A stretch of DNA of 64,000 nucleotides from Sipunculus nudus (lineage: Eukaryota > Annelida > Sipuncula > Golfingiida > Sipunculidae). A model generated the notes under the pieces. The model saw only the letters and a list, made by a program, of their open reading frames with translations. It made no database searches and was not told where the DNA came from. The stretch covers positions 67,708,453-67,772,452 of the forward strand of contig CM049311.1 in NCBI GenBank assembly GCA_026874595.1. The letters are read 5' to 3'. Position numbers and translations under genes: made by a program. Shown here one piece after another: positions 27,067 to 62,340 of this stretch. Within the stretch, counting starts at the first letter, position 1. Each line of letters begins with the position of its first letter.

Positions 27067-27069
27067 TGA

Positions 27070-30895: not shown

Positions 30896-31860
30896 ATTTG
30901 CATTGAGCGAGACCAGCCCCACTAGAGAGGTACTTTTAAATGGAAAATGAACGGCACCTTACACTCATTCTGTTTAACTCATTCTGTTAAGGCGGGCAAC
31001 CACTAACAATTTATTTAGTATAGGATATTCCGTGTTCTGATCTAACTAATAGGCATAGGGAAGAATGAAAAATAATCAAAGATCAAGACTGCTGAAATCG
31101 TTTGAACCATGGGGACCTGAGGTCCACCTACAACAAAATAACCCTTTCCAACTAAACAATTAAAAATCTCATCAAACCGGGGAGAGACAACTGTTTTTCT
31201 TACCTTGTATATTACCATCCGTATCGATACTATGCTGCTACAATGAAGAATGCTAACGGATTGCAAAATTTTATTTATTTAAACTTTTATACAGGATAAC
31301 CCTTTTAGTCAAGAATAATTTATCTGCCACACAACTCGACTGGACAATGCATTTTATAAAATCTTGTAAAGTACAACAAATATAAAAATAAAAAGTGCAT
31401 ATTCACATAAAATTATGACATTCAAGGTAAAGCAGAGTGCATTCACGAGAAGTACATGATTAATGGGAAAATGGCCTGTTCGAGGTTTGAGTAATAAGTT
31501 AATTGACATGGTCATTGCCAGTGCCTTTTTGTTGGACTTTGGTAATACGATTAAAATCCTGCATACAAGTTCACGGGACCTAGAATATATTGAAATACAA
31601 AAACAGGATTAACAACATAAATTGATAACAAAATATTTTTATGTCCATGAACTTGTTTGTTTTTCTGTTTGGCTAAAACTGAATAATTTTATCCAAAGGA
31701 TATGCACGTATTTTCGAATATAGCAAATATAGATCAAGATAATGTTTGTCTCAGATCAAAAGTGTGTTAATCCTTACAATATATTCTTAAGTGATACATA
31801 TAAAAAGCACAGAGCAAAACTTCCACCATTTGCATTCAGGTATCTCCTTTCTGGATCAGG

Positions 31861-32872
31861 TCAGTGACTGGTTGTTTTGACGGCGAGAAGTGTGACACAT
31901 TTGAGGACTTCCTTAGCTTGACATGGGTGACCGTCAGTCATACTTTCTTGTTCAACAGCAGCCATCATATCGTCAAGTAAATCTTCTCTCATTTCCTCAG
32001 GCACCAGATCTAATGCAGGACGAAAACCTTTCACAAAAGCTAGAGTGGAAACAGTTTTTTATAAACATTCAATTTATCCTTCATTTAATATTATCAATAT
32101 TAAGGCAGTCTGCTTCATAAATATTTGAAGTGTGTTCAGATGTTGAGATAAGACATATAGCCACAGGGGCACATTTAGCATATAGTTCTTTATACTAACT
32201 GAAAAAATTGCGTTTGTATTTGAACAACTATTTTATGAATACCAATATCTTATAGAAATTTAACAAAACTTTTTCCATGAAAGAAGACAACAGTTTACTA
32301 TACCTCTGGTCATTGGGAACTCAAAAAAGAGCACTTCGTTATCCATGACGTCAAATCCATGCCTCAGAACCATTTCCGTGAATACATTATTTTTTTGTCA
32401 GCCAAGGCACCCCTTCCGCCTTTGACGGCTCCATACACGTCAAAATGTATTCTGGTAATACATGTTCTAATTCCTGAAATTTCAAGCATTATCTATACAG
32501 AATATGGTTCATATAATTAGACTGGATGAGAGTGATAATCAATCGAATAGTATATTCATCTGCTATTGAGACGTAAGTTTTTATTTTACATTGCTAATAA
32601 TAGTTGAGGACTATCATTTCGTTACCTCGAAGCTTATCTAGTTCTTCCAACGAGGGCACCCAATAATCGTTTTTATAATAGCAGCTGTGTAACGGTAGGG
32701 TTGATAAAATAAAGGAAACAGTAACATGGCCCTTCCACCTGGATTAAGGAGCCAGTTGATGTTATCAAGAGCACATTCCATGTCACTAACCCACTGAAGA
32801 GCAAAAAGGACGTGGCACAGGAAAAGTTAGATTTGTACGTGGAGATGTCTTGTAGGTTGCGATCCTGAAATA

Positions 32873-32930
<58 letters not shown>

Positions 32931-34492
32931 CGAGAGCGAGAGAAAAAAAAACAGAGTCATGTGATTGGAACGCAATCATCGAATCTCGGAACCTATGCTT
33001 TTTTTGCGAGGTTGTGTGCTAAGTCCTCTATCCTTATCATTGCGCCACCTACGCAGAATCATATACATAAACTAAACATTAACAGCTGCTTGTTTATCAG
33101 TAATGACTTGTACTCTTTCCACATGATTCATTCCTATTGAATTTAATAACAATATGCCTAATCTCTTTGGCTGAAGGTAGTTATCAAACTAGAATTTTGT
33201 GGCGATGGAGATGCAACAGTATCCTCATACCAGACATACCCTTTGTTCTGAAGCATATATTGACATAATACTAGTTCAACAATTTTTTACTCGTCCAATT
33301 ACTTTTTTGAAACAATATTGGAATCATAATTGAAGAAACTTCTGCAATATTTCAAAAGTTATGGAGTACATAAAAGTGTATAATTCAGCTAATTTGACCT
33401 TGAAGACATATGTCAAGGTCGCTAGTCTTCAAACCTGTTCATAATTTCGGTAGAAAAATTTGTGTGTCTGATTTAAAGAAAATATATCGCACTACTTAAA
33501 CAGTTATTTTGTTTACCAAAAATTGTAAATTTCCGCACATTAGGACTGTAATACCAAGGTCAAGTTCACAGTTTTCAAATATATACGAGTTCTTTGCGGA
33601 AATAATTTGTGTAAGTATTTTTTAGAAGAATATGCAGTACATCGAAATCAAGAGCTTCACCATTATCCTTGATTTTGGCAGAATTGACCATAAAGGTCAA
33701 AGTCAAGGCCAATTTTTACAGATTCGGTTGTTAGATGGCCTTGTAAAGGATTCACCTTGACCTTTATCTTAAAGGTCAACTTTCGATTCGACATCTTTCA
33801 AATTAGTGTTTAGAAAAATACATTCATGCATTAGAGAAATATTTTCTTCGTTTTTCACTATATATAAATATTCATGTTCAAGCCACACTAATAATAAGGT
33901 CATGGCCCAAATTTCAACAGGCGTCATTCTCTGACGCATATCTGTGCATTTGTAAATTATAGTTGCGCTAACATTTTCATTCACAAGACAAACCTATCCA
34001 AGGTTATCAGTCAACCGGTTTCATAAAACAGTCAATTCAGAGTTTCTTGAGAAAATTATGAATTAGGGTATTATAAAAAACAATTCAGATTCAAGAACAC
34101 TATTGTAGTGAAGGCCATGAATGAATTTTAAATAGCCTTCCTCCTCTCATCCATTTCTATGCACATGTCAAGTTTGATGTAGATCCGTGAGATTTTTTTT
34201 TCTTATCTCGCTCTCAAGAAACCATGCTAGAATTTTAATATATCCGGGGGACCTATCCGGGAAAAGAACTAATTGCCAACCTCGATATCCATTCATTCAG
34301 CCCAAATGTGATCGTTCTCGTGCTTCTGCTTGACGTATTTTATCATGGGTTCGCTCACATATACTGCATCGAGGTGGCAATTAAACCTCTGCTGCAAGTA
34401 AAAGCTTGTCTCTCCTGTCCCACAGACGATATCAATCAAGTGATCATCCGGGCTTATATTTGTCATAAGTAAGCTGTTAATGAACGCTTCAT
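31861..34492 (-). pseudogene. Methyltransferase pseudogene, copy A (JHAMT-like)
   Basis: Four exon-equivalents lie at about 34281-34492, 32626-32864, 32305-32473 and 31861-32039, in the order and with the splice sites of the intact copy at 43102-45758. Exon 1 has lost about 60 bp after the first codons, carries a Gly-to-Val change in the SAM-binding motif (DIVCGTG) and ends with CGA changed to TGA. Exon 2 has a one-base loss before the LHWV-equivalent and a Trp-to-stop change near its end. Exon 3 carries an A-run insertion that brings in TAA. Exon 4 is open but ends slightly differently (TGA at 31861). Multiple independent lesions make this a pseudogene. Confidence 0.9.
32876..33065 (-). repeat. 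tRNA-SINE relic with (TA)n tail in intron 1, copy A
   Basis: On the minus strand an A-box-like GTGGCGCAATGATAAGG (about 33050) and a decayed B-box precede a body ending in TTTTTTTTCTCTCGCTCTCGC. A (TA)n run follows at 32876-32929, directly before exon 2. Equivalent sequence with a (CT)n tail occurs at the same intron position in copies B and C, so the insertion predates the duplication. The (TA)n expansion is specific to this copy. Confidence 0.55.
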
Positions 34493-34865
34493 GGCTCTGG
34501 AACTACATGGACGCCACAGAGTTTAGACAAGTTACACTTACGCTGGAATTCCTTGTCTTTTATGTATGTTATAATTAATGTCAGGGACACATCATTCATA
34601 TATGTGACATTATATATGATCAGAATTTTATTGCATAAAATGGTAACTGATAAATCATAAATCAAGGTGATGCCACCTTCTCATCTATGAGCAATTCAAA
34701 CATTGGTAAATAAAAGGAGTGTTTTTCAAGAGAGGCTTTTTCTTTTGATTCTTCAGAGGCTTAATTGAACATGGAGGGCCATCAAACAAAATTTAAAAAA
34801 AAAACACAAGGCTGATAATCGTTTTGCAAAAGGAGATGCCAACTTGTTGAATGTATGTTTTCTTT

Positions 34866-36240
34866 TTTTTTTAAGAAGTGACAAAATAAAAGTGATATAT
34901 TATGTTTTCTTTTACTTTTGTGTTATAATATTAATAAAACATTATATTTGCATACTTTTGCTATTTATTATATAGGAAATCTGCCTCACGTCATCAAAAA
35001 CAATCATTAATGATTGTTTACGGAACATATTAAATGTATACACTAAATCGGTAAGTTTTGTCATTTATGGAATAAATGTTCGTAAATAAATGTATATTCA
35101 AAATGTGCTCAATCAGTAAAGAGTACAGAATAAAGAACATTCATTACCATGCATTATTGAAATAACTCCTCTATCCTGGACCTAAAATTGACTACATAAA
35201 ATACGGCGTAAGAAGTCTCTTCGTCTTAAGGATATATAACGATAGATTATGGTATTGCTATACAGCCTGTTAATGTTTATAGTTTTTTCTTTCTATTTTT
35301 TTAAGAAGTGGCAAAATAAAAGTGATATATTATGTTTTCTTTTACTTTTGTTTTATAATATTTGTAAACATTATATTTGCAAGCTTTTGCTATTTATTAT
35401 ATAGGAAATCTGCCTCACGTCATCAAAAACAATCATTAATGTTTGTTTACGGAACATATTACATGTATACACTTAATCGGTAAGTTTTGTCATTTATGGA
35501 ATCAATGTTCGTAAATAAATGTATATTCTAAATGTGCTCAATCAGTAAAGAGTTTAGAATAAAGAACATTCATTACCATGCATTATTGAAATAACTCCTC
35601 TATCCTGGACCTAAAATTGACTACTTAAAATACGGCGTTAAGAAGTCTCTTCGTCTTAAGGATATATAACGATAGATTATGGTATTGATATACAGCCTCT
35701 TAATATTTATAGTTTTTTCTTTCTTTCTTTTTAAGAAGTGGCAAAATAAAAGTGATAGTTTATGTTTTCTTTTACTTTTGTGTAATAATATTTGTAAAAC
35801 ATTATATTTGCATACTTTTGCTATTTATTATATAGGAAATCTACCTCACGTCATCAAAAACAATCATTAATGATTGTTTACGGAACATATTACATGTATA
35901 CACTAAATCGGTAAGTTTTGTCATTTATGGAATAAATGTTCGTAAATAAATGTATATTCAAAATGTGCTCAATCAGTATAGAGTACAGAATAAAGAACAT
36001 TCATTACCATGCATTATTGAAATAACTCCTCTATCCTGGACCTAAAATTGACTACTTAAAATACGGCGTTAAGAAGTCTCTTCGTCTTAAGGATATATAA
36101 CGATAGATTATGGTATTGATATACAGCCTCTTAGTATTTATAGTTTTTTCTTTCTTTCTTTTTAAGAAGTGGCAAAATAAAAGTGATATATTATGTTTTC
36201 TTTTACTTTTGTGTTATAATATTTGTAAAACATTATATTT
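34866..36240. repeat. 430-bp tandem repeat, three full units plus a partial
   Basis: The landmark TTAAGAAGTGxCAAAATAAAAG occurs at about 34872, 35302, 35732 and 36163, giving periods of 430, 430 and 431 bp. Units are about 97 per cent alike. Each has GCCTCACGTCATCAAAAACA and then a dyad around CAATCATTAATGATTG; the dyad is a perfect 22-bp palindrome in units 1 and 3 (34998-35019 and 35858-35879). Copies B (46125-46560) and C (58500-58850) each have only one, diverged, unit. The amplification is therefore unique to copy A and recent. Confidence 0.92.
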
Positions 36241-37790
36241 GCATACAGCCTGCTAATATTTATAGTTATATATTTATAACCATTTAAAGCCATAAGAACC
36301 CCAAAACTTTCAATTTAAGTGATCCGAATGTGCCACTTTTACTTTAACTCTCCCTATCACCATAAAAACACACGATTCACTTTAGAAATATATACACATT
36401 CACCTTGTATGACGCAGTGATCGAGAGAAAACTGGTCAAAATGAAAAAGGAGAAACAGCAGCTAAAAAAGTAGAAACAAAAAGCTTCCAATGAACCTGAA
36501 ATACCTCATGATCTTATATTAGGCTAAAATATTGTAAAAGTATTAACACATACACATACACGTGTACAAGAGTCACCCTAGCCATTGCCGTGAAGTTGTT
36601 TACAGGCGAACATGAGACTGAGGACGTACACCACACCAAGGACAAACCTGACCGGTGAGCTACATATGAAGCATAATACAAATAACATCATATATGTATT
36701 ATCTTATGTGTCCACCAGGACCGATATTACTGGTTCCTAAACGGATCTCTAATAGAAGTCTTACAGCATAAATAAAGTGTCCTAAATGTATACATAGCCG
36801 CATAATATATAAATATCCGTTCACAAAGAAATAAAAGGTTTACGTAACATAGTTGTGCAGTGAGGTGTAGCTAGACTTGCATTATCTATTGCTCTTATGT
36901 GCATGCATATGTATATGGATGCAAACATAAATCAATTGAATCACTAAATAAAGCCCGTTCACATTTACTTGGAGGATGTGTCTGTGCCCGTTAGTACTCA
37001 TTCAATATGGGATTGCTGAGAGATATTTTATATGCATGAGATGTGCCAATGATACAAATAATCTTTTAATGTTTCTACTTCAGAAGAATTTTTACTTATA
37101 TTAAGGTCTCAAACTGCTCCAAAATAATTGTTAAACATTGTCCCGATTTTCCTTAATATAATCTAAAATTATATTCTTGTAATTCACATGTACAATATAT
37201 GGAAACTTAAATATTCACTACAATTTTAAGAACAAGAATTTCTCAAACTTCGTTCAAATTTTAGAGGCTTATAAGAACTATTGTATTTATATACTTCATT
37301 ATATATTTTATATTTTGCGGCCATTTAATGTTCAAATATTTCATTTTAGACGAAGTTGTCGAAATTTTATGAAGTTGTTAATCTATTTTCTGAAATGTTT
37401 GCATATTCGTAATGGAAAACTTTTTATCTGTAAAAATTACACAGTTACTTTTCGTTTGAAAATTTATAACTGGAATATTCAATAAATCCATATATTTGAA
37501 ACTTATTAATGAAAATAAAAAATAGTCATGTTGATTTAAACTCGATGCCAAGAGGCCATTTCTTCACTCGGCTGTTTAACAACTCAGCCATATGCACGTT
37601 GTCACGAAATTATAGTTTAACCTTTTTCATTTCTCGGGTTAGCTTTATCTCTGTATGTGTTAAAGTAGGCCAGGTTCACCGATCAGGATTATTTGACATG
37701 AGACAAGAGGGTAATGCATTGCGGTCACAAAGGGCACCGCTTTGTGGTTAGCCGTTGTAATAGGCTCATTCTTTACAGTCTACTAAGTAA

Positions 37791-38780: not shown

Positions 38781-39159
38781 CACCTACATCGGACTGGGGC
38801 TTTACACAATAGAGTATGGGAGGCTCGCGAACATAAGTTAGTGTTAGCGAGGTTTAGGGTCGCGTCGCGTAAGCAAGTAACAGACTAGGCTGCACGTGCT
38901 CAGTTTCCAGCAGTAAAGATCCTTTAAGATCTGAAATTGGCACTCGCTTTAGCCAAAAACCAAAGTTGCCTGGGCAACAATTTCCCAGGCAACGAAACGT
39001 AAGCTACGGGATTCGTGAACTATCCGGGCCACAACAATCACGGATACAAGTTCGTCAAAATTCGCCCAAAAACAGAAAAATTACATATTTTTGGCTGCAT
39101 AATGGAATGAGGCGGAAAAACCCGGATGCAGATCGTACCCCGTTTCACGTTTAGAATGG

Positions 39160-39598: not shown

Positions 39599-39677
<79 letters not shown>

Positions 39678-43101: not shown

Positions 43102-45758
43102 TCAGGTATCTCGTTTCTGGATCAGGTCCGTGGTTTTGACGGCGACAAGCATAACACATTTAAGGACTTCCTTAGCTTGACATAGGTGACCGTCATTCAT
43201 ACTTTCTTGTTCCACAGCAACCATCATATCATCAAGTAAATCTTCCCTCATTTCCTCAGGTACCAGATCCAGTGCAGGATGAAAACCGTTCAATACAGCT
43301 GCAATGGAAACATTTTTACATGAATTTTTCATCAATTTATCAATTGATCAAACTTCATAAAATATTATTAATATTAAGTCAGATTGCCTCATAAATATTT
43401 GAAGTGTGTTCAGAAGTTGAGACAAGAAATAAAGCTACTTCGGCACGTCTAGTATTTTATAATTGATACTAAATTGGAAAATGCGTAGTTATTTAAACAT
43501 ATATTGTATTTTATGAAAACCAATCTGTTTATGTAAATTTAACAAAACATTTACATGAAAAAAGGCAACAGTTTAGTATACCTCTGGTCATTGGGAACTC
43601 AAAAAGGAGCTCTTTGTAATGCATGACGTGAAATCCATGCCTCAGGACCATTTCCTTGAATACATTTTCTTTGGTCAGCCAGGGCACCCCTTTCGCCATT
43701 GCCGGATCGATACCAGCCAAAATGTATTTCGGTAATACATGTTCTAATACCTGAAACTTCAAGCATATTCTATACAGAATATGGTTCCTATAGTTACACT
43801 GTATGAGAGTGATAATCAAAGACATTTAATATTCATCTAGTGAGACGTTGGTCTTATTTAATAAAGCTAATAATAGTTATGGGCTGTCTTTCTGTTACCT
43901 CAACGTTTATCCACTTCTTCCAACGAGGGCTTCCAATTATGGTCTTCATAATAGCTGCTGGGTAACGGTAGGACTGATAAAATAAAGGGAACAGTAACAT
44001 CGCCCTTCCATCTGGTTTAAGGAGCCAGTTGATGTTTTCAAGTGCACATTCCATGTCACTAACCCAATGTAACGCAAAAAAGGACGTGGCATAGGAAAAG
44101 TTAGATTTGTACGTTGAGCTCTCTTGTAGGTTACGATCCTGAAATAATAATAATCATAATATATACAAGAAGAGAGAGAGAGAGAGAGAAAGAGAGAGGG
44201 ATGTGGTTGGAACGCATCCATCGAATATCAGAGCTAATGCTTTTTCTTGCAAGGCTGCACGATGAGTCCTCCATCCTTTTCATTATTCCGGAACATCATA
44301 TACATTTTCGAGACACTATCAGCTGCTTGTTTCACAGTAATGTCTAATACTCATACCACATCATTCAAACAGAATGTATCAAAAATTTATATATAATCTC
44401 TTGGGTTCAGAGTAGTTATCAAACTAGAATTTTTTGCGTCGGAATACCCTTGGACAAGACTACCTACTTGTTCTGAAGCATATATTGACATTTCGCAAGG
44501 TCATTATCACAAGAGTCAAGTTCAACAGCTTTTTAACTGGTCCAATAACGTATTTGAAAGAAAATGTGAATTCTAATTGATTAAATATTATTGCAATATT
44601 TAAAAGTTATATAGGGTTCATAAAATTGTAAAATTCAGCTTATTTGACCTTATAGATCAATATCGAGGTCGCTAGTTTCCACACCTGTTCATAATTATGC
44701 TAGAAATTTGGTGTTTCTAATTTGATTCGCACTTCTTCAATAGTAATATGGTACAACAACGATTGTAAAGTTTCTCACAAGGCCATGAATACCAAGGTCA
44801 AGTTTAGAAGTTTTCAAGCATATACGAGATCTAAGTGGAAATAATTTGTGCGAGTATTTTTATGAAGAACATGTAATATATCAACATTTTGAGCTTCACC
44901 ATCATCCTAGATTTCGGCAGATTGGACCATAATGATCACATTCAGTTGCAGATGATTCTGTAAAGCATTGACCTTAATGTTGATCTTCAAGGAAAACTTT
45001 CTATTCGTCGTCTTTCAATTTGAATTTCAGAAAAAATGCACCATGGCCTTGAGCAATTTGTTTGTTTTTCACTAAATATGGAAATATTCAAGGTCAAGGT
45101 CACTCTCATAATAAGATCATGGCCCAAATCAACTTCATTTTCTTACAGATATATGTGCATTTGTAGAATAAAGTTGCGCCATCATTCTCATGCAAAGACA
45201 AACCTATCCAAGGTCAACCGGTTTATCAAACTAATCAATTCAGAGCTTTTTGAGATAATTATGAATTGTGGGATTAAAAAAAATGAACCAATTTTAATTC
45301 ATATTTAAGGCCATACTATGAGTGAGCGCCATGAACCAATTTTTAATTGGCTTCCTCCTCTCACACCTATCTATGCACATTTCAAGATTGTTATACATCC
45401 GTCAGATTTTATTTGTTATCTCGTTCGCAAAAATATCCCTGCTTAATTCATAGCATATCCGGCTTCTTGTCTGGGAACAGAACTAATTACCAACCTGGAT
45501 ATCCATTCGTTCAGCCAAAATACGATCGGTCTCGTACTCCTGCTTGACGTACTTTATCATGGCTTCGCTCTCATCCACTGCGATGAGATGGCAGTTAAAC
45601 TTCTGCTGCAGGTAATAGCTTGTCTCTCCTGTCCCACAGCCGATATCAATCACATGATCATCCCAGCTTATATTTGTGACATAGCTGTTTATGGCGGATC
45701 GTCCGTATTCCTTCTGAGGCGTGTTTCCGGCAATGTAAGCCGTTGGAGGACGCTGCAT
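43102..45758 (-). CDS. SAM-dependent methyltransferase, juvenile hormone acid methyltransferase-like
   Basis: Four exons, complement(43102-43298, 43582-43750, 43899-44138, 45495-45758), give an uninterrupted 289-residue protein. All three introns (1356, 148 and 283 nt) are GT-AG with phases 0, 0 and 1. It is a class I Rossmann methyltransferase. Motif I VIDIGCGTGE is at about residues 36-45, the acidic ribose-binding position is Asp62 (IAVDES), and Asp86 (MDIQ) is the likely adenine contact. SFFALHWVSD lies at 107-116 and LLKPDG at 127-132. The SFxxLHWV and LLKPxG phrases plus SPRWKKW (about 158-164) and total length match juvenile-hormone-acid O-methyltransferase-like proteins, which methylate carboxylic acids. 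In molluscs the substrate is unknown, so only the fold is secure. Start: the first ATG, conserved in the pseudogene copies. A DIRS-like element lies about 0.85 kb upstream and may affect its promoter. Confidence 0.9.
44165..44310 (-). repeat. tRNA-SINE relic with (CT)n tail in intron 1, copy B
   Basis: This is the positional equivalent of 32876-33065, with a short (CT)n tail directly before exon 2 and a body containing ...GCATTAGCTCTGATATTCGATGG... on the minus strand. The A/B-box region is more decayed than in copy A. Confidence 0.5.
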
Positions 45759-46391: not shown

Positions 46392-46784
46392 TTTAAAAAG
46401 TACAAAAAAAGAACATTCATAATCATACATTATTGATATAACTCCTCTACCCGGAACCTGAAAATCACTATCTATAACACGACGTCTAGATGTCTCTTCA
46501 TCTTTAGGATGTGTAACAATGGTTAATGGTATTGAAATAAAGCCGTTTTATATTTATGGTTTTTTTATAGCCATAATAAACCCCGAGAGCCAACACTTAA
46601 GTGTCCCAAATTGTTTGTAAGCACTCTACTATAAACCAGTCATAAATTTGTACATACATTGAGATACAAGGGGCCTTTTATTACAACAACTCAATATCAA
46701 ACCAAACCAGTCTGACCCAGTTATTGGGTGACATCTCTAATCTTAAACTCTAACCATCTACGCTCTGCCCACAACTAGAACGAA

Positions 46785-47715
46785 TCCCCAAAACACCCAA
46801 TTGATTTAAAGTATGGGCTTGGATAAGCCCATAATGGAGGAGTATATGTAAAGTGATTTTAGAGGTATCAGTAATTACCCAGTGTAAGGGTTACTCCTCC
46901 AATCGCCCATGATTCGGATAATATCTGCTGACAATCCACATTTAATCTTTAATTTCGGGTCAAATTAGTCTTTGGTCAAAATTTGAACAGGGGCATTGTG
47001 GATTAAAAAGGGCGGCACGCTGTTTGATGGGGGCACAGTCAGCGAAAACGCATTAATTACATCATAGGTGGGGAATACTCGGGGACCTCTCAGGTGGGGT
47101 AACGGTACAAGAAGCTCACGCTGACGAAACTGAAAAATCTTAGTCTTCTGCACTCCTAATTAGACCCCTGACTCTGTTACTGTAAAGTCTTTCCTTTCAA
47201 ATGAAAGACTGGGTCAAATTTGGAAAGTGTTGTTACCAACATGTCCCCTTTCCCCAAGAGCCCGCGAAAAGGCTACCAGACAAACTGCCCAAAAAAGAAA
47301 CTGCGTCATCCGACTGCGACAGATAAAGAAGGGGACGAAGTTTAAGCATAATTAAGGGGATAATTGACTTTTTATTTCTTCATCACATCTCCCTTTACCC
47401 TATTTATACCTGATAGGACAGACTGGTGGAAATAATTGTCATACAATGGATTAGGGAAATCTGCTTTCCTGTGAAGAATCCGTATAACATTTAGATTTGC
47501 TTTACCATATTCAGTTTCCTTGTTCGTGCAAGGAAAGCTGCAAATCTACACATGTTATCATTCGTAACAGGTACTGATTGTATCCTAGACAAGGGGTAGA
47601 CAAAATTTCAAATATGTTCTCCTTTATACATTGTATGTTTGTTTTTTATGCTGTCTGCTAGGGCCGAGGACCTGTAGTATCTGACTTCTTCATCAAGCCG
47701 GTAAACCAATGTGTG
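46785..47715 (-). pseudogene. DIRS-like tyrosine recombinase, decayed
   Basis: Frameshifted minus-strand segments follow recombinase order. RLDEEVRYYRSSALADS (about 47658-47708) begins it. Next come FAAFLARTRKLN near 47520 and VLSGINRVKGDV near 47395. RQRELLVPLPHL and INAFSLTVPPSN follow (46965-47153), and last CGLSADIIRIMGDWRSNPYT (about 46870-46930). The HSFRRGG-type box carrying the His-x-x-Arg catalytic residues, expected shortly before the last segment, is missing. The codon at the expected nucleophilic Tyr position is a stop (GGG TAA TTA). The recombinase would have inserted the element DNA by site-specific recombination; this copy is inactive. Confidence 0.75.
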
Positions 47716-47719
47716 CCCG

Positions 47720-49190
47720 TCAAAACTGTGGGGACAGATAAACAACATATTTACTGGACATGTGACACTTAATGTTAGCTAGCAAATCTTGCACTGGCCT
47801 AACTGGATACTGAAATAACAAGAAAGCCAGACGCAAAATCTTGCCTGGTTGGTGAAGCCTAGAAAAGGCATCAGGAGTGTGATTTAATTTTTCCGGTAAA
47901 AAGCAAGATTCCAGCCAAAAGTTATGTTTTGATGAAAGTGAAAATAATCCTAGCAAATAATTCATAACATTAACTGTTTCTACTGATACCCCGCTTGAGT
48001 ATTCCCACCCCACATGAGCTGTCCGTGTCGACTGTGACTCTTTTATCTTCCAAATGTCTGTCCCATTTTCTTGCCGCTAATACAACAGAGAACACGTCTT
48101 TATAATTATTATGCATGTCTTTTACTTTGGGCCAACTAGCTACCCAGTTAACATACAACCAATCATCGTGGTATTGCGTGTCTGATGCTTTTTTTGAAGC
48201 ATCCATAAACACATGCGTTTCAACCCGTGAAGGCAGATAACACTTCATGTACTCATGTTTCCACAGGCAGGTTTGCCACAACCTGATGTCTTTGTCGAAT
48301 TTACCAGACAGCTTGACCTGGTGGAAGCCTTTTTTTAGCTCAGCCATGGGGTCTAACATGCGTCGTAAAAATACTCTACCGCCCCGCACAATCTGGCACC
48401 CAGTTTAATTTCCCTGAAATCGGATGTATGTGTCTAAGTTTTGCATAGGGCCATCAACTTTTTTCCAGCTTTTACAAAAGCCTAATTTTTTTCAGAAGTG
48501 CTTTTCAATGCAATAGGTATTTTTGCTCTCTTCAAACGTTTTACTAATAATGAGAAAATCATCTAAATACACCACATTAGATTTAATCCCCCTGCGGGCC
48601 ATCACACACGTGTTAATCTATTAAAAATACCCAGGGCCCCACTGGCTCCGAATGGGAGCCTGATATCGAACATAACAGTTTCCTTTGTTTGTCCTTTAAA
48701 AGTCCATTTCAACCCAGAAGCAGCATAATTTTATTTGTGAAGGAGAACGGACCTATACGCATCATGTTAATCAACTTTTGCTAGAAAATAATTTCTCTTA
48801 ACAAGAATTAGTTTCTCCTGCAAGGACTGATAGTTTACCGACTCATTTCTATGGTAATATGCATTAACCCTCAAGCAAGCTACAATCATGAATTATCCGC
48901 ACGGTATCAGTTCCTGGTTTTGATATGGACCCCAAGGCACTAATGATTAGAGGAAAATTGAGGACATATTCAATAATGTCCCTCTTGTATGCCTTTAATA
49001 ATTTCAGTTTCCACTTGGCCCATATGATTATTTGTTATTGCTGGTTTGATAGACTTGACATTATCTACAATTGAAAACCCATTTTTAATACCATTTGATA
49101 AAAATTCTTTAACTTGGTCTCCCTGCAGTTCCTCTTTCCAACGTTGTAAATGTGTACCAAGAGAATTTTGAAAATGTTGGTTCGTAGAGG
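47720..49190 (-). pseudogene. DIRS-like reverse transcriptase and RNase H, decayed
   Basis: RT sequence begins near 49190 (GTHLQRWKEELQGDQVKEFL near 49125) and continues with NESVNYQSL near 48850, NYAASGLKWTFKGQTKETVM near 48735-48690, RLPFGASGALGIFNRLTR, and the catalytic YLDD at 48558-48569. RNase H-like sequence follows with VFMDAS (about 48210) and VDTDSSCGVGILKRG (about 47995). LPEKLNHTPDAFSRLHQPG comes at about 47850-47910. At least four frameshifts or stops separate these pieces. The motif set matches DIRS/Ngaro RTs of aquatic invertebrates and not Gypsy. Confidence 0.82.
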
Positions 49191-49218
49191 CCTAACACGA
49201 ACAACTGGGTAGCAATTC

Positions 49219-50407
49219 CTACCCCTGATGCGGGCTCAAGTTTACGCTGGGATTTTGGGACCTTGTGTGGGTTTTACCATAGCCCCCCGCCCCCACAGAA
49301 CATACATGTACAAACTTACAGTTTGTGCCGAACTTGCATGACCCCCCGATGAAGGAAATACAGATTTCTTTACTTGTCTCAGGGTCCCTTGGACCCGATT
49401 CCCCGGGCCTCTCATTATGTTTATGTACATTACCTCCAGGGGATTTACCTGCCGTAGTAGTGGTACTTATCTTTGGTTTTAACCATATCCTACTGATGGT
49501 GGCTATTTGGGAACCCCATCTACAAAATAGCTTGGCCTGCTCTATACAAGCCATCATATAGCAACACATCTATCCATCTATACTGCTGTGTCAGCCTAGT
49601 AACCTGAATTAAATATGAAAAATAGTCTGGTCTTTTTCTGCAGCTTACCCTGTCTTGTGTGGGTATCAAGTATTCTTAGTAAAGCGGCAAACCATTGTTC
49701 TTGTGTAATGGTCTCAAGTTTTGGTTTCCTTGACGTGGTGGGCCTTAAAACAATACAGCGGGATGTATCTGACACGACCTCCGCCAAACCGCTGTTGTTA
49801 TTGGAGACTCCTAAAACCCCTTGCGCATAGTCAACAACTTTTAAATAAGGTACATCTGGTAATAGTCTTAGATACATTGAGGTTTCAAGATGATTGGCCG
49901 TTTGTAAGCTGATAGGCGTACCTTGACTCGCAGTCCCTTGAAGTTGTGTTTGAGCGGCAGATATTAGCGGTGTCGGGAGCACGACGCCCTGTTGATTAGC
50001 TGCAGACTCAGGAGCTGGTGGCTGTATCCTTCCCGAAGGATGCTGCCCCTTTGTGCCGATCATATCATCTACAGTAGTTGCAATATACCATCAGCTGAGA
50101 AAAAACGTCTGTTGCTGCTGGGCTCTCGGTAGGGCGCAGCTATCTTGGTTACCGTCAGTGGGTCATTTAAGCGTTTTACGGCACGACGTAAAGCAAGGAC
50201 CTTGGCAAGAGGCGAAATTTTTTTTACAATACCTCTTCGTCGAATAACACACACAAGTTTCGTGTTCGTAGACCCATTCCTGTTCGCACTGACTGTGTCT
50301 TATGGCTTTTCTGAAAGGCCCACTCCTGGATAGCGAGGTCGACGGCCATTTCAGTCAACTTATTCGTTTGCAACATGAGTTCACTTTGCTTCCTTCGACT
50401 CCCATTT
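49219..50407 (-). pseudogene. DIRS-like Gag region with CCCH zinc-finger motif
   Basis: Broken minus-strand frames start near 50407 (TEMAVDLAIQEWAFQKS, then a stop after LCVLFDEEVL at about 50238). They continue at 49596-50063 (TITQEQWFAALLRILDTH near its end) and 49219-49569. The last frame has CX7CX5CX3H (C70, C78, C84, H88 of that frame, SCKFGTNCKFVHVC, about 49305-49362). DIRS/Ngaro gag proteins commonly end in such CCCH motifs plus a second Cys/His cluster. Here the second cluster is degraded (CSVGAGGYGKTHT). Confidence 0.7.
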
Positions 50408-52262
50408 TAACGGATGAACTGCTGTAATTATTGCCAAGACGCAATGCTGTAGTGTTCAGCGAGCATATAAGCCAGAGCATAAAATTTGAGCTAACCCGAT
50501 CTTAAAAAGCCGATCCTAAAATGTGATTTCCGTGCTGCGTACAGAGATAAACTAATTCAAAGTACCCTGCTCTGAAGTGTGGCTATGTTCTTCTAGCTAA
50601 TTGGCCAGTGTCATGTGACCCTGGTCTGAAGCCACCCATTGGCGCCCCTAAAATCCCAGTCATGAATGGACTGGTCACTTTAAGAGGGCCGAAAGTGCTT
50701 CCATAAAGAAGCGCCTTTCCTTAAGACACCCTATCACCATAAAAAACTACGAGTAACAGCAGATAGAAAGGGTAGCCAAGACGTATAAAACAAAACAAAA
50801 ACCTTCCTATGACCCTGGAATAAATCTTAATTTATCATAAGCAATTTTTGGATATCTGGTGCTTTTCACCAAAATAATGTTTGCACAGCTTCAATTAAAG
50901 CTAGAAAGAAATTAAAGTCTTTAAATACTAAAACAAAAGAAAAATTCAAAGTTCTACCTTTTGTGATTATGTCGTGATTTTGTGATATATATCAAGTATA
51001 AAACCTATTATACTCTCCAATGTCGGTCATGCCATGGTACATACAGGTTGCATAAAAGTGATACCGAAAAGAATAAATGAAAAGACCTTCTTGATATCGA
51101 AATAATGTAGACGGTGCCAAACATTCACCAGTTTACACAGTTTTACATAGATTAATATAAATGCAGGAGTTCAGAGTAACAGTTCAGGGCTTTGGTCAAG
51201 AGGTCAATGTGTTTGTGATAGTTCTGGAAAACCTTTTGGCTAATTTTTTTTCGATTTGTGCATGATAGCAGTGATATTTTGTGATGTTGGCACATATGTT
51301 CATATATTTGGTTTGTGACTTCCCATACAGGCGTACAAGACTCTGCCCAATCATTAAGATGAAAAACTGTTCACAGGCAAACATCCGCGCCATGGATAAA
51401 ACTGACCGGTGTCCAAAAAAAAACGAAGCATGATACAAAAAAAAGATTACGATACCTGTCTCATGTATCTACCAGAACCCAAATAACTGCTTCATGTACG
51501 GATCCCTAACTGACGTCTTACAGCATATATAAATTGTCCTAATACGTAGATCCCTGCGTCCACATAAACGTATACATAGCCACATCATATTTTTATATAT
51601 ATCGTTCACCTTGAAATAAACGGTTAACCCGACACAGTTATGCAGTGAGGTTTGGCTAGGCGTGCATAATATATAACTCTCATGTGCATGCATGTGTATA
51701 TGAAAGCAAACATAAATCAATTAAAGCACTAAATTAAGTCCGTTCACATTGGAGGATGAGTTTGTGCCTGTTCGTACTCAGTTAAGGTGGGATTGCTAAA
51801 CTTATCATATATGCCTGAGATGTGACTATAATACATATGTTGTATTAATGTTTCTTCTTGAGAAAATTTTTTGATTTATAAAAGGATCTAAAACTGCTCC
51901 AAAGAATTGTAAGACATTGTTCCGTTTTTCGTTAACCTTACCTAAACAGTTGCTTTTGGATTACTTCACATGTACAATTTATGCAAACTAAAATGTTCTC
52001 TACAATGTGAAGAATAAAAACACTATGGTACTTATCAAACCTGGTTGAGGTTTTAAAAAATAAGAACTATTTTTTTTTATATTTTAATTATATATTTTAT
52101 ATTTTCAGCAATTTATGGTTCGAAATATTCCATTTTCAACAGATAAAGTTGTAAACCTATTTCTTGAAACTTTTTTTTTATATTTTGCCTAACTATAATG
52201 GAGAGCTTTTTATCTGTTAAAATTATACAGTAACTTTTGGTATGCTCATTTCAAACTGGAAT

Positions 52263-53351: not shown

Positions 53352-53590
53352 TTAAACTTATTTATTTTACATGGATTGTACAGATAGTTATTATAACTAA
53401 TCGAGGCACTCCCCATGGCTCCGATGATGGCATTCTATTGTCTGTACGGGTGACGGAAACCGGAGTTCCCAGAGAAAAACCACCGGCCTTGGACGGCCAA
53501 CTACAACCCACTCTCATAGCCAGGCCGGGAATCGAACCCGGGTCGCCAGCGGAGAGAGCCAAGCGTTTTACCAATCAGCTATCCAGGCTC
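53352..53590 (-). repeat. tRNA-derived SINE, full-length
   Basis: On the minus strand it starts GAGCCTGGATAGCTGATTGG (A-box TAGCTGATTGGTAAAACGC) and has a perfect B-box GGTTCGATTCC about 45 bp on. A conserved-looking body with GGTGGTTTTTCTCTGGGAAC and CTCCGGTTTCC follows, like the central domains of widespread invertebrate tRNA-SINEs. It ends in TACAATCCATGTAAAATAAATAAG. The overlapping 70-94-codon frames on both strands are translations of the SINE. Pol III promoter elements are intact. Confidence 0.8.
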
Positions 53591-54944: not shown

Positions 54945-55654
54945 CCTGTATATTACCATCGGTATCGATAAAACGCTGTTACAATGAAGAATGATGGCGG
55001 ATTTCTAATTATTTTTAATCCTATTTTTTTTTTCAGGACACCCCTTTCAGTCAAGAGTAACTGATCTGCCACACAGCCCGATTGGAAAATGCAGTTTATA
55101 CAATCTTATTAAGTTTAATACCAATGCCATTTAAAAAATCATAGTGCGGTTCGAGAAGAACAGGATTAAAGGAGAAATACAATGTAACACAAGACACAAG
55201 ACATACAAAATAACATAAAGGCAATGGGGTGGGGGGTCAAGTGATTTTTTTATCATTTTAGATCGACGTTTAATCTGGAGAAATTTCTTGAGAGTCAAAC
55301 ATTGTGTTTCTCAATATAATAATTTATAAAATCTTCAAATAGACGGTCCAAGGTTTGAGTAATATAGTTAATTGACACGGTCATTGCCAGTGCCATTTTG
55401 TCGGACTTGGGTAATACGTTTGTTATCCTGCATATTCAAATACTAGATAATATTAAACTACCAAAACATGATTAACAAGTAAAGTTGATTATACAATATT
55501 ATCCTGTCCATGAATGTGTCTGTTTTTCTGTTTAGCTAAAATTGAAGTACCTTTATTCAAAGGATATACTATTTTTCGATGATATCTGTTATAGATAAAT
55601 GTAATATTTGTCGCAAATAAAATATGTGTTAATCCTTGCAATATTTTCTTCCCT

Positions 55655-58109
55655 GATACTGCGACAATCATGACACATTTGAAGACTTCCATAGCTTGAC
55701 ATGGGTGACCGTCGTTCATACTTTCTTGTTCCAGAGCAAACATCATATCATCAAGTAAAGCTTCTTTCATTTCCTAAGGCACCAGATCCAGTCTAGGATT
55801 TGTAAGTTTCAATACAGCTGCAGTGGAAATCCGTTCATGTACATCCAATTTACACTTCATCAAATATTATCAATATTAAATCGGACTAATCCATAAATAT
55901 TTGAAGTGTGTTTAGAAGTTAAGACAAGAAATTTGCTGCTTGGGCACATTTAGCATGTTGTTATTTATACTAAATGGTAATATGGGTATTTTTTTAAAAC
56001 AATATTTATTTTATATAAAAATCCATCTGTTTATGTAAATTTAACAAAACAAAAGTTTAGTATACCTCTGGTCATTAGGAACTCATGAAAGAGCCCTTCG
56101 GAATCCATGCCGTCAAATCCATGCCTCAGGACCAATTCCTTGAAAAACATTATTTTTTGTCAGCCACTCCATACCATACAAAACGTATTCAGGTAATACA
56201 TCCTGAAATTTCAAGCATAATCTATACAGAATATGGTTAATTTACTAACAATGGATGACAGTGATAATCAAACGAATAGTATAATCATCTGCATGTGAGA
56301 CGTAAGTCAATATTGGCAATAATTGCTGAGAGCTGTCATTCCGTTACCTCAACGCCTATCCACTTCTTCAAACGAGGGCTTCCAGTTATCGTTTTAATAA
56401 TAGCAGCCATGTAACGGTAGGGTTGATAAAATAAAGGGAACAGTTTCATGGCCCTTCCACCTGCTTTAAGGAGCCAGATGATGTTATTAAGAGCACATTC
56501 CATGTCAGGAACCCAATGAAGCGCGTAAAAGGAAGTGGCAAAGGAAAAGTAAGATTTGTACGTGGAGCTCTGTTGACGGTTACGATCCTGAAATAATAAT
56601 AATAATACTATACAGGAAGAAAGAGAGAGAGAGAGAAAGAGAGATAGAGGGAGACGTAATTTGTATGCACCAATCGAAACTGAGAGCCTATGCTTTTCTT
56701 GCGAGGCTGCAAAATAATTCCTCTATCCTTTTCATTATTCCACCTACGGAACTTCATATACATTTTTTTAAACACTAACATCTGCTTGTTTCAGAGTATT
56801 GTCTAATACTCATACTACAGCATTCAAACCTGGAATTTAATAACAACATATATAATCTCTGGGGGTGATAGTATTTATCAAACTAGAATTTGTAGCGTCG
56901 GAGACGCCCGGTGTCCTCGGGCAAGACATAGCCCCTTGTTCTGAAGCATATATTGACATTTTACAAGGTCATGATTACAAGTTCAACAGCATTTTAACTC
57001 GTCGAATAACGTATTTGAAACAAAATTTATATCCTTATAGATGAAATATTATGCAATATTTCAAACGTTATAGGGTTCATAAAAATTGTATAATTAAGCT
57101 AATTTGACCTTGAAGAACAATGTCAAGTTCGCTAGTTTTTAAACCTGTTCATAATTTTGGTAGAAAAATTGGTGTGCCTTATTTAATTCGTCCTACTTCA
57201 ACAGTAACTTGATTCACCAAAAAATGTACATTTTCTCACATAAGCCTTTAATACCAAGGTCAAGATCAGAAGTTTTCAAGCATTTATGAGATCTTAGTGG
57301 AAATAATGTTTTTATGTATTTTTGAGAAGACATGCAGTACATCGAAATAATGAGCTTCACCATTATCTTAGATTTCGGCAGATTTGACCTTGAAGATCAA
57401 AGTCAGTTGTCAGATGATTTTGTAAAGCATTAACCTTGACATTCATATTAAAGATCAACTTTCTATTCGACATCTTTCAATTTGATTTTCAGGAAAAAAA
57501 ACTTCCCATGGCCTTGTGCAATATTGGAAATAGTCAAGGTCAAGGTCACTCTCATAATAAGGTAATGGCCCAAATATAAACATTTTTTACACATACCTGT
57601 GCATTTGTAGAATGGAGTTATGCCACCAATCTCATGAAAGGTCATCAATCAACCGGTTTCTTGAACCATTCCAATAAAAGTTGAGAAAATTATGATTTGC
57701 GGCTTCATATTCCCATCCACATCTATGGACATGTCAAGTGAGATATACGTATAAAACTATATATACGTGAGATTTTTTTTAGTTCGTAAGAAACTATGCT
57801 AAAACAATAGTATCTCAGGCTTCCTGTTTGGGAATAGAACTAACTACCAACCTTGATATCCATTCGTTCAGCCATAATACGATAAGTCCCGTACTCCTGC
57901 TAAACTATTTTATCACTGGGTCGCTTACATCCACTGCGGTGAAATGGCAGTTAAACTTCTGCTGCAGATAAAAGCTTGTCTCTCCTGTTCCACGGCCGAT
58001 ATCAATCACGTGATCAACGAACTTTTTTGACATACCTGTCTATGGCGGATCTTCCGTGTTCCTCCTGATGTGTGTTTCCGGCAAGCTAAGCCGTTGGAGA
58101 ACGCTGCAT
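55655..58109 (-). pseudogene. Methyltransferase pseudogene, copy C (JHAMT-like)
   Basis: Exon-equivalents lie at about 57852-58109, 56348-56587, 56066-56202 and 55655-55817. Exon 1 has TAC changed to TAG at codon 8, a frameshift before the SAM motif (DIGRGTG, Cys to Arg) and further stops. Exon 2 is fully open over 80 codons, including SFYALHWVPDMECAL and KTITGSPRLKKW. Exon 3 is shortened by about 32 bp, which removes the segment equivalent to GIDPAMAKGVP and shifts the frame. Exon 4 has a stop at the PEE position (CCT TAG). Its 3' coding end diverges. The open exon 2 suggests the loss is fairly recent or that exon 2 survived by chance. Confidence 0.9.
56605..56770 (-). repeat. tRNA-SINE relic with (CT)n tail in intron 1, copy C
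   Basis: Same position and body as in copies A and B (GCGAGGCTGCA, CCTCTATCCTTTTCATTATTCCACCTACG on the plus strand), with a (GA)n/(CT)n tail at about 56617-56650. Confidence 0.5.
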
Positions 58110-59763
58110 GTCTCTGTAACTAATTGGACACAACACTGTTTAGACACGTTACACCAGTGCTGAAATTCCTTGTAATTTTTCTATGTATATTATATTCATT
58201 GTCAGGGAGACATTAGTATTATACGTGACATTATGTATGATTTCAATTTTTTAATTGCATGAAATGATAACTGGTTGCAGAAAGATCACAAATCAAGGTG
58301 GTGACGACGCCTTGTTGTTCATGGACAATTTAAACAATGGAAAAATAAAACAAGTGATTTTCAAGCTTTTACTATTGACTCTATCAAGGGTTAATTGAAT
58401 ATGGAGGGCCATCTAACAAATTTCCCGGCTTAAGAAAAACAAGCCAAGACTGACAATTGATTTGCAAAAAGAGAATCCAACTAATAGCATGTATGTTTTC
58501 TTATTTTCAAGAAGTGCCAAAATAAACGTGATATGATAATTTTTTTCTTATTTTACTTTAGTGCTATAATATTTGTATAACAATAACTAAATATAACTTG
58601 AGAAAATCTGCGTCACTTCATTTAATGGAACTTAATGGAATAAATGTTCTTTAATAAATGTATATTCAAAACATTGTTCAGTCAGTAAAAAAGTACAGGA
58701 AAAAGAACATTCATTACCATGCATTATTAAGATAACTCCTATATCCTGAACCTAAAAGTGACTACGAATAACACGGCGTCAAGACGTCTCTACATCTTAA
58801 GGATATTGGTATTAATATAAAGCCTGTTAATATTTATAGATTTTATTTAAAGCGATAAGAACCGAATGTGCTTCCATAAAGAAGCAACTTTCATTTACAC
58901 TCTCCCTATCACCAAAAAAACACACGATTCACTTTGGAAATATTTAAAGATTAACCATGTTTGACGCAGTGATCGGGAGAAAACTGGACAAATAAAAAAA
59001 AGGAGAAACAGCAGAAAAAAAGAGTAGAAAGAACATAAAACAAAACAAAAACCTTCCCATGGACCTGAAATAAATCATAATTAAGATAAACCATTTTTTG
59101 GGATATCTGGTGCTTTGAAGCAAAAAGATGCCTGAACAGATTCGATTGAAGCCAGAATAAATTAAATTGTCAAAATACTGAAAATAGGTAAAATTCAAAT
59201 TTGAGTTCTACCTTTTATGATTATGTCGTGATTTCGTGATATATATCAAGTATAAAACCTGTTATACTCTCCGATGTCGGTCTTGACATAGTACATACAG
59301 GTTGTACAAATGAAATACCAACAAATATGTAACAAATCAAAACCTTCTTGGTATCGTAATAATGAAGACAGTGCCAAATTTTTACCCATTTTACAATATT
59401 CTGGCCAAATTTTCCTCGATTGTTACATTATACAGTGATATTTGTGACGTTGACGCATATGTCTGTTTCTTTGGTTAGTTACTTCAGGATCGTATAATAG
59501 GCTAAAATATTGAAATACTCTTAACACATTAACATACACGTGAACAAGAGTCTGCCCAGCCACTGTAGTGAGATCCCGTTCACAGGCGAACATTTGACTG
59601 ATGACGAATGTGCACCATGGAAAAAACTGACCGGTGAGCTACAAACAAAATACAAATAAGAGCATGATACCTGTCTTATGTATCCTCCAGAATCGATGGC
59701 TCATGAACGGATCTCTAATGGAAGTCCCATGGCACATATAAAGTGTCCTAAATGTATACATAG

Positions 59764-59831
<68 letters not shown>
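59764..59831. repeat. (TA)n microsatellite
   Basis: About 33 TA units. Copies A (36793-36815) and B (51580-51602) have only a few TA steps at the same place, so this is a copy-specific expansion. Confidence 0.95.
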
Positions 59832-59837
<6 letters not shown>

Positions 59838-60062
59838 CCGTTCACCCAGAATTAAAAGGTTTACGTTCACATTAACTGGGAGAAGAATCTATGCTAGTTA
59901 GTATTCATTGAACATGGGACTGCTATGACATAATATATATGCATTAGATGTACCCATATATCCGTTCACCCAGAAATAAAAGGTTTACGCAAAATAGTTG
60001 TGCGGTGCGGTGTTTGCTAGAGTGGCATAATTTATTTCTCCTATATGCATGCATGTGTATAT

Positions 60063-61467
60063 TAGAGCCCTGTGCGGGCCAAAACCAGCCCCGCCGGCTG
60101 CGGGGGCCCGCAATCCCCCCCCCCCCCGGGCCGTCGCGAGCTGACTTTTTTTTCAGCATTTTGTGGGGCGGGGCGGGCCGAAAAAAATTCTCTGTGGGGC
60201 AGGGTGGGTGCGGGCTAAAATATGGGATATGCGGGGCTGGGCGGGTTACATGATAATTAAGTACGGGTTTCTGCGGGCCGAATGTATGGTTAAATAGTGA
60301 GAAGATGATCACATTTCTGCAGGTCTGTTTATGTTCTGAATTACTAAATAGTACTTGTGAAATATAAATTCCCTTAGTTTTGAACCAGAATTATCTAAGC
60401 AGAGACAGTTTTTCACAATACTGGAAATGTACCTGGGAATGGCGTTGTATAATTATAGACTGTCCAGCACTGTAGTCTATACTTTTTGCCTGTCTCTTTA
60501 TAATAGTCATTATGCCTGTCATGTTATAATAGTCACAGTATGTGTGCATCTGGCTCTGTCAACAGCTGGATATAGCTTTACATGACTGCAAAGACTGAGG
60601 TGTGTTAATCCTGGATGAGCAAGTGAGCACTGGTTAGTTTAGCGGACTGCATTAGCAAAGCAAAATAAGAGCATGCCATGGGGCTCATTTGATATTTATT
60701 CTTGTGAATTAACCATGATGTAGCTGATCATCGTTGGACAAGATTAAGCTCTTTGTCAAATAAAAGGTATGAAGTGTGGTGAGAAAGTATACTACCTGCT
60801 AACGATGAGTAGTGTAACTCTAGGCATAAAAAGTGATTGTTTATGCTAAGGTTTCATTTTATGTTTCCGAACAGCAGCATATGCATGGTAAATATATGTT
60901 TAAACTGCAATTATGCTGTAAGCTAAATACCTAAATATGTTGAATTTATAATTACCGTAAATATTTTAAGGAGACACAATGGCAATATTTGATTAGTATG
61001 TTCCAGTTACTGCAGTGATATTTCCAGTGATATGGCACTAAATAATTTTTCTTTGGGCAGTAGTCATTCTTAAAAATAAAAAAATGTATGGTAATTCTTA
61101 GACACTCGTCCTTACCTGTGAAAAAACTAAAATGTCCTACTATCAAAAACACATGAGAACGCTATCTACTCAGATGGTCATTCATTATGAATATGTGAAG
61201 ATAAGTAATACTTTTTTAGTTGTCTACCTTTTTGGTTGTCCCTTGTGTTTATTTGCGGGTTGAATGCGGGTTGACTTTTGGTTAAAATGCGGGTGAAGGT
61301 GGGTGCGGATGAAAGCTATATATACGGGGCGGGTGCGGGTCGATTTTTTATTGTTGCGGGGCGGTGCAGGGTGGGTCTTTACAACTGCGGGGCGGGGCAG
61401 TTGCGGGCTGAAGGTTTGATTTGCGGGGCGGGTGCGGGCTCTATATCCATGCCCGCGCAGCGCTTTA
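60063..61467. mobile_element. Non-autonomous hAT-like DNA transposon
   Basis: Left end TAGAGCCCTGTGCGGGC and right end (reverse-complemented) TAAAGCGCTGCGCGGGC match at 14 of 17. Flanking 8-mers are GTGTATAT (60055-60062) and GTATATAT (61468-61475), i.e. an imperfect 8-bp target duplication as made by hAT transposases. Both subterminal regions (60065-60260 and 61255-61455) are strongly GC-rich with GCGGG(C/T)/GCGGGGC repeats in inverted orientation, around an AT-rich interior. Paralogous copies A (near 36915) and B (near 51690) lack it. No transposase frame is present. Confidence 0.78.
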
Positions 61468-62340
61468 GTATATATAAGGATGCAAACATAATTCAATAAG
61501 AGTACTAAATTATTTCCGTTCACATTTACTGGGAGGATGAATCTATTCCCGTTGGTACTCATTGAATGTGGGATTGCTAAGAAAAATGCATAAGATATGC
61601 CTAAAATACAAATGATGTTTCAATGTTTCTACTTCTGAAGAATTTGGATTTATATTAAGGTCTCAAACTGTTTCCAAAGAATTTGTAAACATTGTTCCGT
61701 TTTTCCTTAATATAATCTAAAATGTTGCTCTAAGAATACTTCGAATGTATAATTTATGCAAGCTAAAATATTCTCTACAATGTGAAGAATAAAAGCTTTC
61801 TCAAACCTGGTTCAAATTTTAAAGACTAATATGAACTATTGTATTTATAAAGTTCACAATATATATTTTATTATGTGGTCATTTATGGTTCAAAATATTC
61901 CATTTAGACACATGAAGTTGTAAACCTATTTTCTGAATCATGTATTGTTTTCAATTTTTGCATATTTGTAATGAAAAGATTTTTATCTCTGAAAATTATA
62001 CAGTAACTTTACGTATGCAAAATTCAAACTGGAATATTCAATACATTTATAAAATTAAAACTTACAACTAAAAAAAATCTTGTCGATTTCTCGATGCCAA
62101 GAGGTCAATAATATAATTGGCCGTTTAATAACTCAGCTATATTCACACTGTCACGAAACTTTAAACATTTTTTTTTAATTATTTCACTGGTTAGCTGTGT
62201 CTTTGTTTGGTTGGATGTAGGGCGGGGTCGCCTATCAGGGTTATTTGACATGAGACAAGAGGGGAATGCTTTTTGGTCACAGAGGGCACGGCTTTGCCGT
62301 TGTAGTAGGGGCATTCTTTCCAGTCTACTTGTATTAAGGC

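Follow-up and report, generated by a model that had tools for sequence, protein, structure and literature searches.

A cluster of JHAMT-like methyltransferase genes in Sipunculus nudus with intact, dead and chimeric copies

Which copies of a methyltransferase gene cluster still work, and how they came to lie together, are the questions raised by a 64,000-nt stretch of the Sipunculus nudus genome (assembly GCA_026874595.1, CM049311.1:67,708,453–67,772,452, forward strand). This whole stretch is referred to as the window, its contig as C6, and positions are those of the window unless a contig is named. It carries three copies (A, B and C) of a methyltransferase gene resembling those for juvenile hormone acid methyltransferase (JHAMT) on the minus strand, and a fourth copy (D) starts just beyond its left edge. 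Our analysis indicates that B and D are probably working JHAMT-like genes, that A and C are dead, and that the cluster was shaped by duplication and by exchange between chromosomes. The cluster is real and mostly reflects gene birth and death of an ordinary kind, though with some unusual shuffling; it forms part of a family that extends across the genome, with members that get duplicated, lost and recombined between chromosomes.

Copy B (43102–45758, minus strand) is an intact four-exon JHAMT-like methyltransferase gene, as indicated by its gene model, its Pfam and PDB matches and the purifying selection acting on it. Exons 1 to 4 are located at 45758–45495, 44138–43899, 43750–43582 and 43298–43102, and are separated by introns of 1356, 148 and 283 nt that are all of the GT-AG type. 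The resulting coding sequence of 870 nt specifies 289 amino acids, in agreement with the four-exon, 289-codon minus-strand frame proposed in an earlier, sequence-only reading of the window. B is intact though not pristine, as it lacks 7 nt at its 3′ end that cover the stop codon used by most relatives. This loss results in an 8-aa tail (DLIQKRDT) that is read from what is 3′ sequence in those relatives. The stop is found two residues past KTT (e.g. KTTSH-stop) in 11 of the 13 relatives aligned with B, while D ends in KTTNQPLT-stop and C also departs from the usual end.

Self-comparison of the window aligned the segments around A (about 30.9–37.8 kb), B (about 40.8–52.3 kb) and C (about 54.9–62.3 kb) in one order, with aligned pieces that were about 70–85% identical (73–77% in the longest pieces; E down to 0.0). 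Segment B includes a stretch (46566–50738) without match in A or C. A tblastn search with B as the query recovered the exons of copy A (E 5.8e-26, 2.8e-23, 1.1e-21 and 6.8e-6) as well as those of copy C (E 1.8e-37, 9.5e-18 and 3.2e-10). Copy A (31861–34492, minus strand) is a pseudogene, identified by its lesions, introns and ends, and also a chimera (see below). It consists of an exon 1 remnant (34492–34281) followed by exons 2 to 4 (32864–32626, 32473–32304 and 32039–31861). Between its ATG and codon 34, exon 1 of A has 52 nt fewer than exon 1 of D, a deletion that, as read from the letters, removes the Gln15 codon and shifts the frame. Downstream of this deletion, a TGA at 34295 is followed by frameshifts near 32807 and 32395, with a TAG at 32640 between them. 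A 431-bp unit repeated 3.2 times is located right upstream of A (34859–36246), with diverged counterparts upstream of B and C.

Copy C (55627–58109, minus strand; exons 58109–57852, 56587–56348, 56202–56066 and 55817 to about 55627) is likewise a pseudogene. Its Tyr8 codon has become a TAG (58088). Further along, the frame is shifted near 58016, 57907 and 56145 and interrupted by stops at 57902 and 55776, 8 codons of exon 3 are deleted, and motif I reads DIGRGTG instead of DIGCGTG. Copy D begins outside the window, with its ATG 180 bases to the left of base 1, and its frame (C6:67708273–67705604) is unbroken. The region upstream of D that falls within the window (1–199, minus strand) matches the regions upstream of A, C and several copies on contigs C15 and C3. 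The sequence-only reading had described three collinear segments, two dead copies with different lesions, a middle copy that is intact and one copy off the edge, and had taken this as gene birth and death; all of these elements were recovered here.

Selection on the copies was estimated with purpose-written codon models, using seven intact genes and three topologies. For B, the ratio of non-synonymous to synonymous substitution rates (omega) was 0.44–0.48, and neutrality was rejected at p 0.019, 0.006 and 0.005 on the three topologies, while D yielded an omega of 0.51–0.52 with p about 0.02 on each of them. The omega of C was 1.07–1.08, for which neutrality was not rejected and which exceeded the background (p 0.003), indicating relaxed evolution. 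Copy A, with an omega of 0.60 in exons 1–2 and 0.80 in exons 3–4, differed neither from 1 nor from the background. Among the three window copies, neutral evolution is thus rejected for B and not for C, while A stays undecided. Among the seven intact genes, exons 3–4 evolve faster than exons 1–2 (omega 0.62 vs 0.36, p 0.016, with the common value in this test taken from a coarse grid).

In a tblastn search of the whole genome (1.43 Gb in 153 contigs), B yielded at least 139 exon matches across contigs C2, C3, C6, C8, C15, C16 and C17. Modelling of 40 genomic stretches with a purpose-built protein-to-genome aligner yielded 46 gene models, some of them fragments, spread over these seven chromosome-sized contigs. 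The most divergent intact member is L045, and the family may have further, distant members beyond this count. The family tree and residue counts rest on 42 rows, after four low-scoring models (two in L015, L030 and the second in L033) had been dropped. By our reading, 20 of the 46 models have intact frames (uninterrupted between start and stop codon, all introns being GT-AG), and these are found on six of the seven contigs, with C16 having 0. The 20 comprise 16 models that were clean by script, together with L014, L016, L022 and L025, in which a frameshift call at codon 282 was overruled because their own stop precedes it; L027, L034 and L046 are clean yet incomplete and were left out of this count. 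Introns at codons 88, 168 and 225 (phases 0, 0 and 1) are kept in most family models. On C15, the copies L018, L020 and L023 have an identical short frameshifting change near codon 9, and this common change suggests that a dead copy multiplied along with the C15 array.

With regard to enzyme identity, B scored above the Pfam gathering score for seven of the eight listed models, including Methyltransf_25 (4.6e-16), Methyltransf_11, Methyltransf_31, Methyltransf_12 and Methyltransf_23. Its best solved relatives are JHAMTs (E 2.4e-14 with B alone), bearing out the assignment to JHAMT-like class I methyltransferases that had earlier been made by motif. When a profile of nine paralogues was compared with the PDB, JHAMT was matched at 4.4e-20 over positions 7–269 of 283. 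The top six sequences were all JHAMT, five of them aligning from profile positions 6–8 to 269–279 of 283 and the sixth from 32 to 279. The JHAMT entries matched (9xyq, 9xyo, 9xys, 7ebs, 7ebx, 7ec0, 7ejb and 9un4) are presumably all structures of insect enzymes.

Chain 9xyq was assumed to be the enzyme described in PMC13223930, because its residues match the numbering used there at a constant offset. In that enzyme, the substrate carboxylate is contacted by Tyr7, Gln14, His115 and Trp116, and mutants indicate that Gln14 is essential and that changing His115 to Asn or Gln leaves partial activity (PMC13223930). All four contacts are kept in B, where they align with Tyr8, Gln15, His112 and Trp113, and JHAMT Tyr237 aligns with Met249. 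On this basis, the carboxylate end of the site looks conserved in B, while the far substrate end does not. Across the 20 intact frames, D38, G40, G42, G44 and D62 are always present (motif I being DIGCGTG in B), as are Tyr8 and Trp113 (both 20/20). Gln15 is kept in 19/20 (Ala in L016), and position 112 is His in 14, Asp in five (all of them C2 copies) and Gln in one. The C2 copies in question (L040–L044) are five close relatives over 2 Mb, all with Asp at the JHAMT His115 position. From these alignments we infer enzyme activity and carboxyl methylation for B, which would most likely methylate a small hydrophobic carboxylic acid.

Two other identities or origins were considered for B. Farnesoic acid methyltransferase (FAMeT) corresponds to PF12248, according to PMC10015273, and was rejected since PF12248 is not among the 8 Pfam families matching B at E up to 0.001. 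A recent gain from bacteria was unsupported, as only distant prokaryote relatives turned up: 383 matches to two peptide patterns led to 70 loci that were 23–44% identical in their best segments, with the top match being 30% identical over B residues 34–148.

The surroundings of the cluster tie it to C15, a separate chromosome-sized contig that carries a related array of 0.4 Mb. The block at 17734–32876 (no strand assigned) is collinear with C15:32468502–32480129 through in-order pieces that are 80–91% identical, and 87–91% over most of its length, although broken by unmatched stretches. The left limit of this block is the end of the C15 stretch compared. On its right, the high identity stops inside A and falls to 73% beyond it. 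The spacing between D and A (34.7 kb) resembles that between L024 and L025 (35.4 kb) and between L021 and L022 (34.1 kb) on C15. The shared block also contains a sulfotransferase-like fragment (19501–19764, plus strand; Sulfotransfer_1 1.3e-6), an 88-residue open stretch corresponding to domain positions 63–104 of 255. Moreover, a sulfotransferase pair, one member with stops and the other open and about 2.5 kb apart, is found right of C on C6 (C6:67779155–67782359) and right of L026 on C15 (C15:32520483–32523712). Sulfotransferases form a large family themselves, with at least 151 matches genome-wide, many of which approach the full domain in one open frame.

The 42-row coding tree placed A with L022 and L025 (support 97), C with L026 (98) and B with L016 (76), all four partners being copies on C15. 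Trees were also made of the 5′ and 3′ halves of the gene, cut at the breakpoint of A (see below). In the 5′ half, D grouped with L027 of C15 with a support of 100. C grouped with L026 in the 5′ half only (85, the branch of L026 being very long) and with L028 in the 3′ half (56), and B paired with L016 in neither half. Ties to C15 are accordingly firm for A and D, but not for B and C. The tandem array of the sequence-only reading is consequently upheld insofar as neighbouring copies are collinear, but not as a simple in-place series, since A is chimeric, D groups with a C15 copy and much of the left half of the window recurs on C15.

Copy A is a chimera, with a D-like 5′ half, and with exons 3–4 and about 15 kb downstream that resemble a C15 lineage; the direction of the exchange is inferred. 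In sliding windows, the upstream region and exon 1 of A were about equally close to several copies, most of intron 1 into exon 2 was nearest D or L027, and the remainder, from late in exon 2 to the end of exon 4, was nearest L025 and L022 (0.91–0.97). A changepoint analysis of 348 sites separating L022/L025 from L027/D put the breakpoint at an estimated 32582–32520, in intron 2 of A (32474–32625, minus strand), where D/L027-like sequence gives way to L022/L025-like sequence. The gain obtained was matched in 0 of 2000 permutations, with A being L022/L025-like at 42 of 328 sites before the changepoint and at 17 of 20 sites after it. In the 5′ half, a forced union of A with L022/L025 lowered the log-likelihood (lnL) by 149 units, and in the 3′ half a forced union of A with D lowered it by 117 units, both with p below 1e-30 in the approximately unbiased (AU) test. 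Correspondingly, the non-coding Kimura two-parameter (K2P) distance between A and L025 fell from 0.42 in the 5′ half to 0.075 in the 3′ half. As the latter value compares with 0.24–0.29 among A, B and C, the exchange is far younger than the array itself. Within the exchanged part of A, the frameshift near 32395 has no counterpart in L022 or L025, so that this lesion probably postdates the exchange.

A further change of relationship was found for D, which grouped with L013 in the 3′ half with a support of 100, both copies lacking four exon 3 residues. Uniting D and L013 in the 5′ half costs 83 lnL units (AU p 1e-5). Either D or L013 is recombinant, and the AU tests show just that much. A changepoint for D was likewise located in intron 2; however, A served as the comparison sequence and has its own switch there, so this result is confounded and was not used as independent evidence. 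The similarity of L027 to D likewise ends in intron 2, and exons 3–4 of L027 were not found. It is conceivable, though on balance improbable, that intron 2 is a recurrent exchange point on two chromosomes at which the SAM/carboxylate half (exons 1–2; SAM, S-adenosylmethionine) is swapped against the faster-evolving substrate half (exons 3–4). This would fit with A as one clean product, with the relationship between D and L013 that also changes between halves, and with the point at which L027 and D cease to be similar. With similarly low probability, the array might act through such intron 2 swaps as a recombination library of substrate specificities.

The explanation we favor is that B and D would encode SAM-dependent JHAMT-like small-molecule methyltransferases. 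Judging from the solved enzymes, exons 1–2 would hold the methyl donor, with Tyr8, Gln15, His112 and Trp113 holding the carboxylate beside it. The cluster would grow by duplication of large segments and by exchange between copies on different chromosomes, and A would be the product of one such exchange, joined in intron 2 and probably dead since then. A number of observations weigh against this explanation. An omega near 0.46 amounts to only moderate constraint on B, in which the usual stop codon is gone and a novel tail stands in its place, and the selection p-values are uncorrected for multiple tests. The data for A are compatible with both neutral and constrained evolution, and the dead copies A, C and L018 gave a pooled omega of 0.73 that does not differ from 1. 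Whether B and C pair with C15 copies varies from tree to tree. Moreover, JHAMT Tyr237, an epoxide contact in some insects only, corresponds to Met249 in B, while position 112 is Asp in 5/20 and Gln in 1/20 of the intact frames and Gln15 is Ala in 1/20, and family members therefore need not share one chemistry.

Part of this evidence feeds the possibility, which we regard as doubtful, that the enzyme acts on a group other than a carboxyl and that its likeness to JHAMT reflects a common fold only. The faster evolution of exons 3–4 (omega 0.62 vs 0.36, p 0.016), the Asp that each of the five C2 copies carries at position 112 and the matches of B to the BioC and UbiE models, albeit below their cut-offs, would all suit such an enzyme. 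However, the carboxylate-site residues Tyr, Gln and Trp hardly vary among the 20 intact frames, and the JHAMT alignment is full-length. The lost stop of its relatives, its 8-aa tail and its dead neighbours A and C could also mean that B is itself newly dead or dying, with a frame that is open but not yet broken. Rejection of neutrality on the B branch under three topologies, together with the preservation of every splice site and of the four active-site residues, renders this quite unlikely.

As for the history of the cluster, one gene might have been duplicated in place three or four times here, with two copies decaying and no exchange between chromosomes taking place. The neighbouring segments indeed share one order and a similar mutual divergence (K2P 0.24–0.29 among A, B and C), and the half trees do not firmly put B and C with C15 copies. 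Nevertheless, such a history is unlikely given the block shared with C15 (17734–32876), the half trees and AU tests for A, and the placement of D beside the C15 copy L027 in the 5′ half tree; for A it is already refuted unless the assembly is wrong there. That some copies or the chimera are artefacts of assembly (uncollapsed haplotypes or misjoins) might be suspected from the C2 copies L040 and L044, which are 2 Mb apart and have near-zero branches in the coding tree, and from the bacterial contigs that the assembly seems to include. We consider this highly improbable, as A differs by 7% from its C15 partner in the non-coding 3′ half and the window contains 0 undetermined bases.

Beyond the methyltransferase copies, the window harbors a retrotransposon gag with an adjoining partial protease frame (10692–12475, plus strand; Retrotrans_gag 5e-8, RVP 4.4e-4). 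The open frames in the unmatched stretch of segment B (46566–50738) recall retroelements by eye; two frames at 47723–48404 and one at 49599–50090 gave no Pfam match, while 49222–49569 matches a CCCH zinc finger. A tandem array at 2608–4423 comprises 10.1 copies of a 180-bp unit with 94% matches. Between segments B and C, ARAGORN reported a tRNA-Arg (tct; 53517–53589, minus strand), which may be a gene or a short interspersed element (SINE). In the assembly as a whole, nine of 11 COX1 matches are frames of 577–578 aa with near-equal scores that look bacterial, on C60, C61, C62, C66, C72, C74, C75 and C89 (C60 measuring 57 kb, C61 2.17 Mb and C62 2.01 Mb). Because of these frames, several related bacterial genomes, perhaps those of symbionts, seem to be part of the assembly. 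The COX1 frame on C123 differs (489 aa) and perhaps belongs to the host mitochondrion.

Like the solved JHAMTs, B has a class I SAM domain, a full-length profile alignment and the Tyr/Gln/His/Trp carboxylate site, while it differs from them in its low sequence identity and in the Met at the Tyr237 epoxide contact. With the bacterial BioC and UbiE methyltransferases it shares the SAM-binding core (E 1.6e-14 and 4.7e-12, below the model cut-offs), but this likeness is limited to that core. Frequent lineage-specific duplication of jhamt-like genes is described for arthropods in PMC10015273, with 18 genes in the scorpion Centruroides sculpturatus, and the rapid copy-number change in S. nudus resembles these expansions. 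As differences, 20/46 models are intact here by our reading, seven chromosome-sized contigs are involved and one chimera is demonstrated; the string "pseudogen" is absent from the main text of that paper (PMC10015273). PMC9181382 reports JHAMT from amphioxus and echinoderms, and genes of the sesquiterpenoid pathway from both gastropods and bivalves. A literature search of titles and abstract openings, covering few subscription journals, returned no JHAMT-like expansion outside arthropods. The expansion itself is known in kind from arthropods, and the chimeric copy A is the least ordinary feature here.

To our knowledge, the roles of JHAMT-like enzymes outside arthropods are mostly untested. 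The S. nudus family offers a natural comparison set for this purpose, consisting of 20 intact frames with natural changes at the His position (five Asp and one Gln) and one copy with Gln15 changed to Ala, and its dead copies can be used as neutral controls. Copy A in turn provides a testable case of inter-chromosome exchange that joined two enzyme halves. Should it be true that the array recombines repeatedly at intron 2, this would constitute a concrete route to new substrate specificity.

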